Source: Fibrobacter sp. (GTDB lineage: Bacteria; Fibrobacterota; Fibrobacteria; Fibrobacterales; Fibrobacteraceae). From it: a stretch of 44,535 nucleotides of DNA. Below, in pieces: positions 17,465-27,926 of the stretch. The stretch lies in the NCBI GenBank assembly GCA_012511955.1, contig JAAZFC010000089.1, positions 1-44,535 on the forward strand, given 5' to 3'. The notes below the pieces were generated by a model, which worked only from the letters and a program-made list of their open reading frames with translations, was not told the origin of the DNA and ran no database searches. A program made the position numbers and the translations under genes. Positions within the stretch are counted from its first letter, which is position 1. Each line of letters begins with the position of its first letter.

Positions 17465-17950
17465 ATGCTAAAACAACTTGTCAATTTCATCGCTTTTGGT
17501 CTAATTTTAACCACGATATTATTTCTTATTCCTCACATAACTAAAAATGACTTTATTGAAAAAACTACTAAGCGAATTGAATTAAATACTAATGAACAAA
17601 TAGCAAGTTTCAGCCAAGAATTAGATAGTGCTTTTAATTTGCACCGCCCTTTAGTTACACAATGGGCTTTACAGCTAAAAAAAATATTTACCTTAGACTT
17701 AGGCTATAGTTTATACAATTATCCAACTAGAAATTGGCATATTTTAAAAAAACCTTTTCTACAAACTCTAAACTTATTTTTAATTTCAATTTTGTGTTCT
17801 TGGAGCTGCGGTACTCTTTTAGGAGCACTTATTTTTAGAGTCAATAGAATCTTTATCAACCGATTATTTGTAATCACAAGATTTCTTTCCTTTTTGCCTG
17901 GTTTTATTTACGCAATTCCATTTATTTTACTTTTTAAATTAAACTCTTAA
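17465..17950 (+). CDS. OppB/DppB-like ABC permease, N-terminal half (gene interrupted by in-frame TAA)
   Basis: This 161-residue product matches the first half of oligopeptide-type permeases: transmembrane segment 1 at 7-24, a periplasmic stretch with HRPLVTQWALQLKKIFTLDLG (compare the family's R..LGLdkPl..qY..wl...GDlG), then segments 2 and 3. It stops at TAA 17948-17950. The reading frame continues without shift into the next entry, which is the matching second half. The gene begins three bases after the propeller gene and lacks a clear ribosome binding site. Possibilities are a pseudogene, stop readthrough, reinitiation at the ATG 12 bases on, or a sequencing error. Confidence 0.6.
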   Translation: MLKQLVNFIAFGLILTTILFLIPHITKNDFIEKTTKRIELNTNEQIASFSQELDSAFNLHRPLVTQWALQLKKIFTLDLGYSLYNYPTRNWHILKKPFLQTLNLFLISILCSWSCGTLLGALIFRVNRIFINRLFVITRFLSFLPGFIYAIPFILLFKLNS

Positions 17951-17962
17951 AAATCTATTTTT

Positions 17963-18349
17963 ATGATTGTGTTGTTTTCTCTAATTTTATTCCCTTTAAT
18001 TAGTCAAGCCTCTAATTTTTTGAAAACACTAAATAAGGAATTACAAAGCACCAGCTCCTATTTTATACAATTAATGGGTCTTAATTTTCACAGTTATGCT
18101 TTTTCTTATATCCCTAAACACATGCTCGTTCAATTTGTGCAACTTTTACGGATTAGTCCTCTAATCATTTTAAATTTAATCGCTTTAGATGCCTTTTGTC
18201 TTAAAAATGGAATTAGTCAAATTGTAAGCATATATGTACAACAATATGATTTTGCCGTTCTGCAAAGCACAATTATTTTAATCTCATTAATTGGGCTTGT
18301 TTTAAGCTATTTAAGTAAATTTTTAACTGCGCTACAACCTCAACAATAG
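17963..18349 (+). CDS. OppB/DppB-like ABC permease, C-terminal half
   Basis: This is the continuation, in the same frame, of the permease fragment that ends at 17950; only one TAA and four further codons separate them. The 128 residues hold three hydrophobic segments and a cytoplasmic loop corresponding to the EAA coupling loop (FIQLMGLNFHSYAFSYIPKH, compare A.GLs....f..H.lp), here degenerate but with the central glycine kept. The end resembles the D.P...g......g segment of OppB. The start ATG at 17963 is only a possible reinitiation site, and no Shine-Dalgarno sequence is visible. Confidence 0.5.
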   Translation: MIVLFSLILFPLISQASNFLKTLNKELQSTSSYFIQLMGLNFHSYAFSYIPKHMLVQFVQLLRISPLIILNLIALDAFCLKNGISQIVSIYVQQYDFAVLQSTIILISLIGLVLSYLSKFLTALQPQQ

Positions 18350-20089: not shown

Positions 20090-21268
20090 CTAATTTTCAG
20101 TGACTAACATTGACTGATATTTCTGTTTTTGCTTGACAAAACAGTCTTCCCAGTCAAACTTTTCTGCGTATAAACGCGCATTCTTAGACCATTGAGCAAA
20201 TTGGGGTGACTTATAAGCTTGTGCAATGGCTTCAGCTAGAACTTTTGCATTTCCAGGGGCGATAGCTAAACCACTCTCAGCTGCCTCAATATGCTCTAAA
20301 GCAGCGCCAGTGTCCGCACCCACCAAAACCTGACCAGAAGCCATAGCTTCCAAAATAGACAAACCAAAAGTTTCCCAACCACTCATGGCCAACCCCATTT
20401 CAAAACTCGCTGTTAAACGTGCCATTTCATCTTTATCTTCAATAAAGCCTAAAAAATGAATATGCTCATGCTTTTGAGTAGCTGATTTTAATAAATCCTC
20501 GTAATTCCCCTGCCCTGCAAAAATAATTGCTGGTTCATGGTTTAGCAGTTTGCATAACATAGGATAAGCTTCTAAAAGAGTTAATAAACCTTTTTCTTCA
20601 CTCAAACGATGAGGGAAAAACATGGTTAGTCTTTCAGGTAGGCCTGCTTTGTATTTTTGTACCAAACTATCATCTTTTTTATCGGGATGAAAAAGGTCTG
20701 CATCCACTCCTAAAGGTAAGTATTGCGTGGGAGATAACCCGCGTTTTTCCATCCTTTGCTGAACTAACTTACTAGAAACTAAAATAGAGTTATAAGATCT
20801 AAATTCCCAACGCGCATAGAGCCATGCCGCACTTTCTGCCCCACTAGACAATATCTGAAATTTTGGTAAAAAAGCACGACGCACATAAGTTACAGGAAAA
20901 TCAGCATGCCAAAAGCCCACTAACTTACTCTTAGGACTGGCAAAAGCTCTTGCCATTTGCACTGCTGTGGGCAACCAATAAGGAGAACCGACTTCTATTA
21001 TATCTGGCTGGTGCTTTTTCAGTAATCTATATAAAACATCAGGTCGCCAAATAAAACGGTAATCCCAATTTCCCATCAGTTTTGGAGCTGGGACATGTTC
21101 TATAATCAATCCAGGACCTTTAACCTCAGTGTAATATTTAGTGCTTGGCGTGATAAAAACTAATTGTGCATCAGTTCTATTTTGATAAAAATCCATTTTT
21201 TCTAAATGGTACCTACGCACTCCCCCACCCGAAGGGCTCCAAAAGTTATTTATATCAATAATGATCAT
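20090..21268 (-). CDS. GT4-family glycosyltransferase
   Basis: This is a cytoplasmic GT-B fold glycosyltransferase, probably acting on a lipid-linked or polysaccharide acceptor. Starting at the ATG 21268 gives 392 residues beginning MIIIDINNFWSPSGGGVRRY, with the N-terminal glycine-rich acceptor loop. The C-terminal donor domain has LTMFFPHRLSEEKGL and the EX7E-type motif in GWETFGLSILEAMASGQVLV. The chosen start overlaps the stop of the upstream primase-like gene as ATGA; a longer frame from 21286 would lack the usual family start. Sugar donor and acceptor are not predictable. The coupling to a replication-type protein is unexpected. Confidence 0.9.
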   Translation of the reverse strand: MIIIDINNFWSPSGGGVRRYHLEKMDFYQNRTDAQLVFITPSTKYYTEVKGPGLIIEHVPAPKLMGNWDYRFIWRPDVLYRLLKKHQPDIIEVGSPYWLPTAVQMARAFASPKSKLVGFWHADFPVTYVRRAFLPKFQILSSGAESAAWLYARWEFRSYNSILVSSKLVQQRMEKRGLSPTQYLPLGVDADLFHPDKKDDSLVQKYKAGLPERLTMFFPHRLSEEKGLLTLLEAYPMLCKLLNHEPAIIFAGQGNYEDLLKSATQKHEHIHFLGFIEDKDEMARLTASFEMGLAMSGWETFGLSILEAMASGQVLVGADTGAALEHIEAAESGLAIAPGNAKVLAEAIAQAYKSPQFAQWSKNARLYAEKFDWEDCFVKQKQKYQSMLVTEN

Positions 21269-23151
21269 ACTTCTACCAGTCCACAATCACTATCACTTTT
21301 AGTAAAATTCATTGATCGCAAATTCTCTTGGCAATTACCGCGATCTTTCATCACGAATAAATTCAACTGGGAAGCACTAGAAGTCAAACGAAGCACATAA
21401 TCAGGATCCCTTGCTGCATATCCTGGTATTGCTTCTTCTGACCACAACTCGCCAGCACAAATCATAGGAATATTTAAACTTCTCTGCAGTTCTAACAGCA
21501 ATGCAGAACTATTTTCATATCCACCCATTTTAAACTTTGAGTTATTTATAGCTAAACGATAAAAACCATCTACACATAGAAGTATGTTAGGGTTTTCTGC
21601 AACCTCTGAGCGTAAAATCTTTAACAAACTAGCATCGTCAGTAATTTGGCTTGCATCTATTATTTCCAATGAATCAGAACTTACTAATTCTGCTAAGTCT
21701 TTGGTAGCTGCAAATATCCGATGACTCTTTTCAGGATCTGTATTATATTGCACATCTTCAATGGGCAAACTAGCTTTTAATGCGACAAAATAATTGATAA
21801 TGTACTGTCGAGGTGCATCTAGGCTTAAATATATTAGCTTAACTGAATTATTTTTTAACAAATCTAAGGCAATATTGCTTAGAAAACACGTTTTATCAAC
21901 AAATTGATCAGATAAAATTAGGTAATATGCTGGTTTTACCCCTCCTAAGAGGTTGTTAATTCCCTCGAACTGTGAAAACACCAAGTTAAAATTTGTTTTT
22001 TCACGACTCATGTTTAGCTCAAAATTTTTTAAAATCTCTTGCATTAAAACTGTTTGGCGACGGGCTTTTGAATTGTCAGGAGCAAAAGACTCCACCCATT
22101 TCTCAAACTCTTCTTTCCCTTTGTCCCTTAAAAACGATTCTACAGTATAACCTTCAGGTAACACTATAGATTTATAAGCCAAACCATGTTCATTTGCCAC
22201 TTGCAATAACTTTTCATGCTGATTTTCTTGGTTAAAAGAGTGTTTATCTATCACTAAGGTTATAGATTCTGCTCCGCCGGCTTGCAATTTAAAAAGATGC
22301 CCAGGATTTATTTTGTCACTAAAAACAGAAACTACACCTTGCAGTCCCATTAAATCAGCAGTAAGTGCATCAAATATGTGAGGTACTAAAATAGGACTTT
22401 TGGCTTTATTACTTATGTTGAATGGTACATCACCAGCCACAGAAGAAAAGGCAAAATTACTGTTAGATATACTTTCATCCTCAATTTCTATACCCAAAAC
22501 AGTATAAATTTGCCCCTTAGCATTGCGTACTGGTAAAGTAAAACAAGAGTTTTTAACAGCATTAATTTTATCTAAATAAAAAGGTATAAGACTTTGATCA
22601 ATTTCATTTAAAGCACAATAATCTAAAAAAGGGTCTATTTCAGCATTGTAAAAGCCGAGCCCATATAAACGAGATTCATATACAGACCACCCCCTAGACT
22701 GTAAAATTTCTTGAGCGCGAGTGTTAGAACTGAGCGACCAAACGCAATACTGTACAAACGAATTTAGCACTTTGGTTCTTTCAAAATACCCTGATTGCAT
22801 CCAAGCAGGGCCTTCAGGTTCTTCATTTAAGGCTTCTAATTCCGAAGCAGATAGCGACTCCATCCAAAATTCAAATGCTGCTTGAGCAGCTTTATCTGAA
22901 GGTAAGTGAGAATACTGCATATTGGCGACATAATCTATAAGATCTCCACCAATACCGCACTCTACACACTTATATTCCCAATATCCTAGAGATTTAAAAA
23001 AGAACATAGTTGCATTGGCAGAATCGTGTAAAGGGCACTGGGTTACAAAGTTGCGACCATGACGGGTAAGGGGAATAGCTAGTCGGCGCGGAGTTATAAC
23101 AGAACGCAGCTTATAACGCTGGGGTAAAGATTCAAAATGTGCTTGGCTCAT
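21265..23151 (-). CDS. Degenerate DnaG/DnaB-like primase-helicase homologue
   Basis: The 628-residue protein has the layout of phage T7 gp4 or Twinkle. A CHC2-type zinc finger lies at C39-x2-H42 ... C62-x2-C65. A primase/Toprim-like region covers about 150-345, with QSRGWSVYESRLYGLGFY and a PVRNAKGQIYTVLGIE element. A DnaB/RecA-like core covers 395-620, including the late element KDRGNCQENLRSMNF. Catalytic motifs are altered. The Toprim EGxxD is P257-H-I-F-D261, and DxDxxG is DKHSFN (302-307). Walker A reads SDQFVDKT (414-421), where only K420-T421 survive. Walker B D528 is kept. Priming is therefore unlikely and ATPase activity uncertain. The frame is intact over 1.9 kb, which argues for a retained function. 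It is coupled (ATGA) to a glycosyltransferase. The start lacks a strong ribosome binding site. Confidence 0.75.
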   Translation of the reverse strand: MSQAHFESLPQRYKLRSVITPRRLAIPLTRHGRNFVTQCPLHDSANATMFFFKSLGYWEYKCVECGIGGDLIDYVANMQYSHLPSDKAAQAAFEFWMESLSASELEALNEEPEGPAWMQSGYFERTKVLNSFVQYCVWSLSSNTRAQEILQSRGWSVYESRLYGLGFYNAEIDPFLDYCALNEIDQSLIPFYLDKINAVKNSCFTLPVRNAKGQIYTVLGIEIEDESISNSNFAFSSVAGDVPFNISNKAKSPILVPHIFDALTADLMGLQGVVSVFSDKINPGHLFKLQAGGAESITLVIDKHSFNQENQHEKLLQVANEHGLAYKSIVLPEGYTVESFLRDKGKEEFEKWVESFAPDNSKARRQTVLMQEILKNFELNMSREKTNFNLVFSQFEGINNLLGGVKPAYYLILSDQFVDKTCFLSNIALDLLKNNSVKLIYLSLDAPRQYIINYFVALKASLPIEDVQYNTDPEKSHRIFAATKDLAELVSSDSLEIIDASQITDDASLLKILRSEVAENPNILLCVDGFYRLAINNSKFKMGGYENSSALLLELQRSLNIPMICAGELWSEEAIPGYAARDPDYVLRLTSSASQLNLFVMKDRGNCQENLRSMNFTKSDSDCGLVEV

Positions 23152-26289: not shown

Positions 26290-27057
26290 ATGCAAAAAAC
26301 ACATTTTTTTGAAACTCATTTTTTTTGTGAGCAGATTTCAGGACAGAAAACTGTAGTTTTAAGTCATGAAGAAAGCCATCATATTAAAAAAGTGCTGCGT
26401 TTAAGGCCCGGCACGCACATAAAATTAAGCGATGGTAAAGGCCTAGTTGCGGTAGGAAAAATTGGCGAGATAACTTCGCCGCAAATACATGTAGAATTAA
26501 TTTCACAAAGCCAAATTGAGCGTAAAGCTATGCTACACTTAGCCGTGGCATGCCTAAAAGACAGGCATTTAGAAGATGTACTGGAACACTGCGCCCAACT
26601 TCCCCTAGGGAGCTTTACCTTATTACGCACCCAGCACTCCTTGGAGCCTCGCAAATCGAATTTGCAAGCTACAACGCGCCGTTTACAGCAAAAGGCCGTG
26701 GTAGCTCTAAAACAAAGCTTAACCCCTTGGCTTTGCCAAGTTAGGGGTCCGGTTTATTTAAAAGATTGGCTCACAGAGCAAAAACAACCACTTATTGTAT
26801 GCGATCCCCAAGGAGAAAGCACACTGCCAACCCATATTTTAGCTGATTTAAACACAAATCTGCCCAGTGGAGATAATGAACCAATTATTTTAGTGGGTCC
26901 AGAAGGGGGCTTTAGCCCCGAAGAAATAGAAGTTTTCAAACAAAACAACGCTTTTTTCTATAAATTAGGAGACACAAGGCTGCGCGCTCGCACCGCCCCC
27001 ATAGTTGCTTTAAGTAGTATTTTAGCCATGAGTCAAAGCTTAAACGAACGGCGATGA
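26290..27057 (+). CDS. rsmE: 16S rRNA m3U1498 methyltransferase
   Basis: RsmE is a SPOUT-fold enzyme that methylates N3 of U1498 in 16S rRNA of the small subunit. The 255-residue product has the N-terminal PUA-like domain (HHIKKVLRLRPGTHIKLSDGKG at 30-51) and the C-terminal knotted SAM-binding region ILVGPEGGFSPEEIEVF (about 201-217) followed by LGDTRLRARTAPIVALSSIL. The length is standard. One departure is RARTA where most members have a glutamate before TA. The last 25 bases overlap the end of rnhB on the other strand, tail to tail. Confidence 0.95.
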   Translation: MQKTHFFETHFFCEQISGQKTVVLSHEESHHIKKVLRLRPGTHIKLSDGKGLVAVGKIGEITSPQIHVELISQSQIERKAMLHLAVACLKDRHLEDVLEHCAQLPLGSFTLLRTQHSLEPRKSNLQATTRRLQQKAVVALKQSLTPWLCQVRGPVYLKDWLTEQKQPLIVCDPQGESTLPTHILADLNTNLPSGDNEPIILVGPEGGFSPEEIEVFKQNNAFFYKLGDTRLRARTAPIVALSSILAMSQSLNERR

Positions 27058-27926
27058 AAAGGCGTGTAGCCATTTTCATGTATAGCTAATTTATGCGCTT
27101 TAGTGGGATATCCTTTATGGCGAGCAAAGCCGTAATCAGGATAGGCTTCGCCTAGTTCTTCCATGATTTTATCGCGGCTCACCTTGGCTAAGACCGAAGC
27201 CGCCGCCACGCTCAGCACCAAGTCGTCGCCTTTGACCAAGGGGCTTTGCAAAGTATATTCTATGCCCTTGATGTATTGATTGCCATCTACCAAAGCAAAC
27301 AAGTCTTTTGCAGGTATTTCCACGCTGCGCTGCAAAATTTTTGTGCTATCATTTGGCTGATCGCTACTCCGAGAAATACCTGCGCCAGCATCAGCATCCG
27401 CGCTCCGTTGCAAAACACCTGCGCCAGCACCAGCCTCTGCGTTTTGCTGCAAAATTCCTGTACCATCACCAACCCCTGCATTTTGCTGCGAAATACCTGC
27501 GCTAGCACTAATCTGCCCATTTTTTTTCAAAATATTTGTGCTAGCACTTGTTTGCTTGGTATTTTGGGCCCAACCCAAAGCCCAAAGCGCCCGGCGCATG
27601 GCCAAAAAAGTCGCTTCTAAAATATTGATCTCATCAATTTCTTGCGCCGTAGCTTGGGCGATGGCAAAATACGACTTTTCACAAATTTGCGGAAATAGTT
27701 CCTCACGCTTTTTAGCGCTTAGTCTTTTAGAATCTCGCAAATCATCTAAATGGCGAAAATCTTTGAGCACCACCGCCGCGGCCACTACAGGCCCCGCCAA
27801 AGGGCCGCGGCCCGCTTCGTCCACGCCCACCAGCAATCGCGGTGAAACTTGTTGCTGCCACCATAGTTCTCCCTCTTCTAAATTGAGTTCCGAAGGCATT
27901 TCTCGGGATAGATTACTGAATATCAC
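27033..27926 (-). CDS. rnhB: Ribonuclease HII with an inserted 78-residue tandem-repeat segment
   Basis: RNase HII removes ribonucleotides from DNA and RNA-DNA hybrids. The 297-residue protein has the family motifs GVDEAGRGPLAGPVV (D36, E37), RDSKRLSAKKRE, ALVDGN (D214) and AAASVLAKVSRDKIM (D252), plus the GYPTKAH element and a normal C-terminus (TPFHRRSFKL). It is about 80 residues longer than usual because residues 127-204 are six tandem 13-residue units, inserted between the EATFLAMRRAL helix and the FALVDGN strand. The insertion keeps the reading frame and the catalytic residues, so activity is plausible, with the repeat looping out. The gene follows purN with a 14-base overlap. The start could also be further in, for example M10, which would remove that overlap. 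Confidence 0.95.
   Translation of the reverse strand: MIFSNLSREMPSELNLEEGELWWQQQVSPRLLVGVDEAGRGPLAGPVVAAAVVLKDFRHLDDLRDSKRLSAKKREELFPQICEKSYFAIAQATAQEIDEINILEATFLAMRRALWALGWAQNTKQTSASTNILKKNGQISASAGISQQNAGVGDGTGILQQNAEAGAGAGVLQRSADADAGAGISRSSDQPNDSTKILQRSVEIPAKDLFALVDGNQYIKGIEYTLQSPLVKGDDLVLSVAAASVLAKVSRDKIMEELGEAYPDYGFARHKGYPTKAHKLAIHENGYTPFHRRSFKL
27315..27548 (-). repeat. Six-unit 39-bp minisatellite inside rnhB
   Basis: Six tandem units of 39 bases encode SASTNILKKNGQI, SASAGISQQNAGV, GDGTGILQQNAEA, GAGAGVLQRSADA, DAGAGISRSSDQP and NDSTKILQRSVEI. The middle units are most alike and the outer ones most diverged, as expected for a tandem array that grew by slippage or unequal recombination and then drifted. 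Unit length is a multiple of three, so copy-number changes would keep rnhB in frame. Confidence 0.9.

Follow-up and report, generated by a model that had tools for sequence, protein, structure and literature searches.

A primase-helicase homologue with degenerate catalytic motifs, encoded beside a glycosyltransferase in Fibrobacteraceae

T7 gp4 carries a zinc finger, a Toprim primase domain, a linker and a RecA/DnaB-type core in one chain, and metazoan Twinkle has the same architecture with an inactivated primase. Most known primase-helicases with a lost activity come from animal mitochondria and retain the helicase: in metazoan Twinkle the Walker motifs have been kept, and the cysteines of the zinc finger are gone (PMC3610141). 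Within the DnaG family, archaeal DnaG in the exosome is an example of a protein that serves as RNA-binding subunit of another complex (PMC4227792). Here, we describe a pseudo-primase-helicase of Fibrobacteraceae, for which a literature search returned no published description.

Gene and domain order

The DNA analysed (hereafter, the window) is a stretch of 44,535 nucleotides that forms a contig of a 2.68-Mb Fibrobacteraceae genome. On its minus strand, at 21265..23151, lies an open frame of 628 aa from its ATG (P0001); at the base composition of the stretch, the chance of a 628-codon open frame is approximately 4e-18. An initial annotation made from the sequence had read this frame as CHC2 zinc finger, Toprim-like region and DnaB-like RecA core, and the frame is real, with domain search, profile alignment and AlphaFold2/Foldseek agreeing on that order, which is the one found in T7 gp4 and Twinkle.

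In the HMM searches it had proposed, the CHC2 zinc finger (ligands C39, H42, C62 and C65; residues 39-65, 22957..23037, minus strand) scores 36.4 bits in Pfam against a cut-off of 24.9, while DnaB_C (cut-off 27 bits) reaches only 19.5 bits in the window protein but 36.6 bits in the orthologue of the sister genome (L034). The Pfam search found no significant Toprim match in the window protein, and the TIGR01391 dnaG match over the N-terminal part (65.8 bits) lies far below the 283.6-bit equivalog cut-off. The Toprim fold is confirmed by a profile alignment with Aquifex DnaG (2au3) and by Foldseek searches with two AlphaFold2 models. When 19 orthologues are combined in a profile, positions 23-351 align with Aquifex DnaG and positions 388-590 with DnaB. 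The DnaB-like RecA core (about residues 388-610; 21322..21990, minus strand), recognised by Pfam, profile and the models with Foldseek, is the part modelled with most confidence. Mean pLDDT is 68.5 for the window protein and 79.4 for a crown Fibrobacter protein, and Foldseek searches of the PDB with both models retrieved human Twinkle, T7 gp4, Aquifex DnaG and DnaB among the best matches. Whole-chain TM-scores are modest (0.3-0.4), so that the modelled arrangement of the domains in space is tentative.

Catalytic and binding residues across the orthologues

We compared motifs in 79 distinct orthologues, with residue equivalences to DnaG resting on alignment with Fibrobacteraceae DnaG proteins and 2au3. 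All four zinc ligands are present in 79/79. The same holds for the R and K of the basic R-N-x-K-G motif, which in the window are R209 and K212 of the template-binding motif LPVRNAKG in the DnaG RNA-polymerase domain (residues 206-213; 22513..22536, minus strand).

The Toprim motifs named in the initial annotation, V-P-H for V-E-G and DKHSFN for DxDxxG, are as written. Toprim motif 1 of the window protein (VPHIFDALTAD, residues 256-266; 22354..22386, minus strand) has PH in place of EG, but most relatives read VEG: the glutamate is kept in 67/79, replaced by Q in 10/79, by P in the window and by S in L034, and the D of this motif is invariant (79/79). At the motif 2 position (LVIDKHSFNQE, residues 299-309; 22225..22257, minus strand), DxDxxG is absent from the window protein and all other orthologues. 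No orthologue has DxD (0/79); arginine occupies the first position in 76/79, mostly as R-x-E or R-x-D, and the second position is E or D in 74/79, with D-x-H in the window and E-x-G in L034. In the third Toprim motif, the residue at the first acid's position is never acidic (0/79), and the last Toprim motif has D/E in 79/79. Among DnaG-type features, the protein has the CHC2 ligands and lacks the combination of EG and DxDxxG, besides the equivalog score.

Apart from the window contig, the same genome carries DnaG on contig C76, DnaB on C124 and a third DnaG-like protein on C51. The last (L175:6761-8002, genome G000), of a type approximately 350-416 aa long, has DxDxxG intact, so the DxD loss is specific to the pseudo-primase-helicase; the gene of this type adjoins MurB in several Fibrobacteraceae examined. 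In genome G051, a separate 871-aa CHC2-Toprim protein (L030) combines an intact DxDxxG with a different P-loop C-terminal half, and its match to the N-terminal half of the pseudo-primase-helicase is one of the best from outside the family.

In the RecA core, the reduction of GKT to DKT is likewise as first described (SDQFVDKTCF, residues 414-423; 21883..21912, minus strand). An intact Walker A, GxxxxGK[ST], occurs in 0/79 orthologues: the glycine before K is missing from all, and the first P-loop glycine is S or A. Other residues are mostly kept, namely the P-loop K (78/79) and T/S (78/79), the Walker B aspartate (79/79; D528 in LLCVDGFYRL, residues 524-533, 21553..21582, minus strand) and the H1a catalytic E/D (78/79). 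An arginine is found in the arginine-finger region in 70/79, and G or A stands in place of the H3 glutamine. Orthologues with intact motifs were sought, and none was found for either DxD or the glycine before K. Relatives thus share the DxD and P-loop glycine losses of the window protein and not its EG-to-PH change. The alignment indicates that the universal losses are the Toprim DxD and the P-loop glycines, not EG, and that basal and crown lineages lost different Toprim residues; the Toprim degeneration initially described is universal as regards DxD and peculiar to the window's lineage as regards EG.

From these losses we infer that the protein is incapable of making primers, and the retained residues make DNA or nucleotide binding plausible. 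Since what is conserved on the surface serves nucleic-acid recognition, and what is consistently lost serves catalysis, we favour, as the probable explanation, an ancient, family-specific scaffold that binds nucleic acid and does not prime. Single-stranded DNA (or RNA) would be held by the zinc finger together with the basic side of what was once the polymerase domain, the scaffold would probably be oligomeric, and the RecA core may bind nucleotide and turn it over poorly. Replication, repair or expression would then be influenced by binding, not catalysis.

The residues kept in the RecA core count against this reading: with the P-loop K and T/S, Walker B and the H1a glutamate mostly in place, residual ATPase or helicase activity is possible. 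By analogy with Twinkle, the protein could have lost priming and still function as a ring ATPase/helicase alongside DnaB, at forks or during recombination. Such a role would suit the kept ATPase residues, the arginine in the arginine-finger region, the confidently modelled core and the divergent RuvC gene next door in 70/71 named loci. However, no orthologue has either P-loop glycine, the H3 glutamine is replaced, and RuvC is not adjacent in the two basal genera, including that of the window; we regard a working helicase as unlikely, if the most serious of the alternatives.

The glycosyltransferase neighbour

Directly downstream of the pseudo-primase-helicase gene lies a GT4 glycosyltransferase gene (20090..21268, minus strand; alternative in-frame upstream TTG at 21286) with an EX7E motif. 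Its GT4 domain (PF00534) scores 95.8 bits, above the curated cut-off, and it reaches no specific equivalog, the best being NF053787 with 174 bits against a cut-off of 480. The ATGA overlap reported initially is confirmed, with the GT4 ATG at 21268..21266 and the TGA of the primase-like gene at 21267..21265. The pairing is conserved: GT4 is directly downstream in 71/71 named loci and in 20/20 other, fetched loci (the automatic adjacency count is 70/71; L064, whose called start is longer, is likewise adjacent). Many of the junctions are ATGA or TAATG and some are short gaps. The pseudo-primase-helicase and GT4 probably share an mRNA, with translational coupling. In the basal genome G010 and in several crown genera, GT4 is followed by a Dabb-domain gene and then by a HAD hydrolase gene. 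Between window and crown the unit is inverted relative to PssA, and the pair stays joined.

The invariant gene order, the start/stop overlap in most loci, the persistence of the pair (with the Dabb and HAD genes in several genera) through the inversion and the constraint on GT4 itself would all fit a protein that has left DNA metabolism and now regulates or scaffolds the co-translated GT4 and envelope synthesis, e.g., as a nucleotide-sensing partner. Yet GT4 is retained without the protein in genera g6 and g8 and in the outgroup families f3 and f5, the best-kept residues are those of the zinc finger and of template binding, which point to nucleic acid, and operon neighbours need not share a pathway. 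We therefore consider this explanation rather improbable, and an obligate dependence of GT4 on the pseudo-primase-helicase is rejected by the occurrence of GT4 alone in these groups. A protein that senses ssDNA or the replication state and ties it, via the co-translated GT4, to the synthesis of envelope glycolipid or glycan is a still longer shot; if true, it would be a new replication-envelope coupling confined to Fibrobacteraceae. Gene order ties the protein strongly to GT4; the functional link is weak.

Other neighbours vary. In the crown, RuvC is divergent from the primase-like gene (70/71 named loci, e.g., L040:8334-8993), with overlapping starts in some loci. Because RuvC adjoins the gene in crown genera only, and not in the two basal genera, it was rejected as the ancestral partner. 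In g6 and g8, the place in front of GT4 is taken by an RNase H1-like gene whose N-terminal domain, Cauli_VI, is of the viroplasmin type (L135, L136, L138, L139 and L143).

Two further genes of the window are unusual. The RNase HII gene (27033..27926, minus strand) contains 3.5 copies of a 39-bp in-frame tandem repeat (27374..27508); the repeat is inserted within the catalytic domain, and the Pfam RNase_HII match is consequently split into two stretches. An ABC-permease-like gene (17465..18349, plus strand) consists of two short frames of 161 and 128 aa, compared with a single frame of 507 aa in the relative G010 (L034); relatives have a solute-binding-protein gene beside it, which was not seen in the window.

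Distribution, history and known systems

When 168 genomes of the phylum were searched with a profile, 98 full-length matches with no internal stops were obtained in 97 of 111 Fibrobacteraceae genomes (G108 has two copies), and no orthologue in the 57 genomes of other families (genome counts tallied by hand). The gene is missing from genus g6 (12 genomes), from g8 (1 genome) and from one 71%-complete g4 genome. A pattern scan of 84,980 species recovered 71 loci, in Fibrobacteraceae only. Pairwise dN/dS among the named Fibrobacter loci has a median of 0.072 and a maximum of 0.27 (GT4, 0.062); by part it is lowest in the zinc-finger part (0.067), the other two parts having 0.12 and 0.11. Decay in relatives was looked for and not found, which bears out the initial view of an intact, degenerate homologue retained by selection.

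The window copy itself is altered at 28% of the positions that are fixed in all other orthologues, compared with 12% for the sister genome, suggesting that constraint may be somewhat relaxed in the window lineage, with the frame intact; the corresponding values for window and sister are 6% and 4% for GT4 and 9% and 5% for DnaG. The window branch length of 2.84 under a mixture model was taken as model-inflated, given that FastTree gives 0.85. Degenerate motifs and an accelerated lineage are what a decaying phage or plasmid primase-helicase would show, and proteins of this fold are carried by phages. For the family, however, the full-length, stop-free copies with dN/dS of approximately 0.07, the fixed chromosomal context and the lack of any full-length relative in IMG/VR (pattern scan), a phage collection and plasmids refute such a remnant, which we hold to be very improbable. 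A mobile-element origin was also rejected, since the viral scan, phage records and plasmids gave only generic DnaG-like matches of approximately 25% identity to the N-terminal half, as was a defence system, for which the only PADLOC matches were weak ones, via the zinc finger, to reverse-transcriptase-linked primase models. Weakest is the idea of an active primase with an altered metal site, which the EG glutamate, the motif 1 and last-motif acids and the acidic second DxD position might allow, but which the arginine at the first DxD position, the lack of the third motif's first acid in every orthologue, the different losses in the basal lineage and a normal DnaG in the genome make hardly credible.

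In DnaG and GT4 trees, the former built with poor outgroups, the window genus and g11 are basal in the family, followed by g6/g8 and then the rest. GT4 is older than the pairing, and the simplest history suggested by the trees is a single gain of the primase-like gene, upstream of the older GT4, in the family ancestor, with probably one loss in the g6/g8 sub-clade. A single gain after the g6/g8 split is not formally rejected (AU p = 0.075) and is less favoured by both trees. Our best reading is that the pseudo-primase-helicase is vertically inherited, ancient and specific to Fibrobacteraceae.

Besides the ATPase residues, two observations count against the favoured non-priming scaffold: the g6 and g8 sub-clade lives without the gene, and the window copy has changed at so many otherwise fixed positions. 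Nevertheless, that a whole bacterial family with normal DnaG and DnaB keeps this protein, stripped of its primase metal site and canonical P-loop, implies that the fold serves here in binding or regulation. Cultured Fibrobacter carry the gene (e.g., F. intestinalis ATCC 43854), making the question open to testing, and GT4 is a concrete candidate partner.

Among known systems, metazoan Twinkle is the best Foldseek match, and it shows that loss of the primase can be tolerated within this architecture, here by analogy. The parallel drawn initially stands for domain order and primase loss and is otherwise inverted, as the Fibrobacteraceae protein keeps the zinc finger and has a degraded P-loop. 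T7 gp4 is matched across the same series of domains (Foldseek E approximately 1e-14) at approximately 15% identity; unlike gp4, the Fibrobacteraceae protein has neither the Toprim DxD nor the P-loop glycines, and its gene is chromosomal with no phage context. With bacterial DnaG (TIGR01391) it shares the CHC2 finger, basic motif and Toprim fold, but it lacks the catalytic acids, continues into a RecA core and coexists with a true DnaG. The archaeal exosome DnaG differs in architecture, and the Fibrobacteraceae gene has no exosome context.
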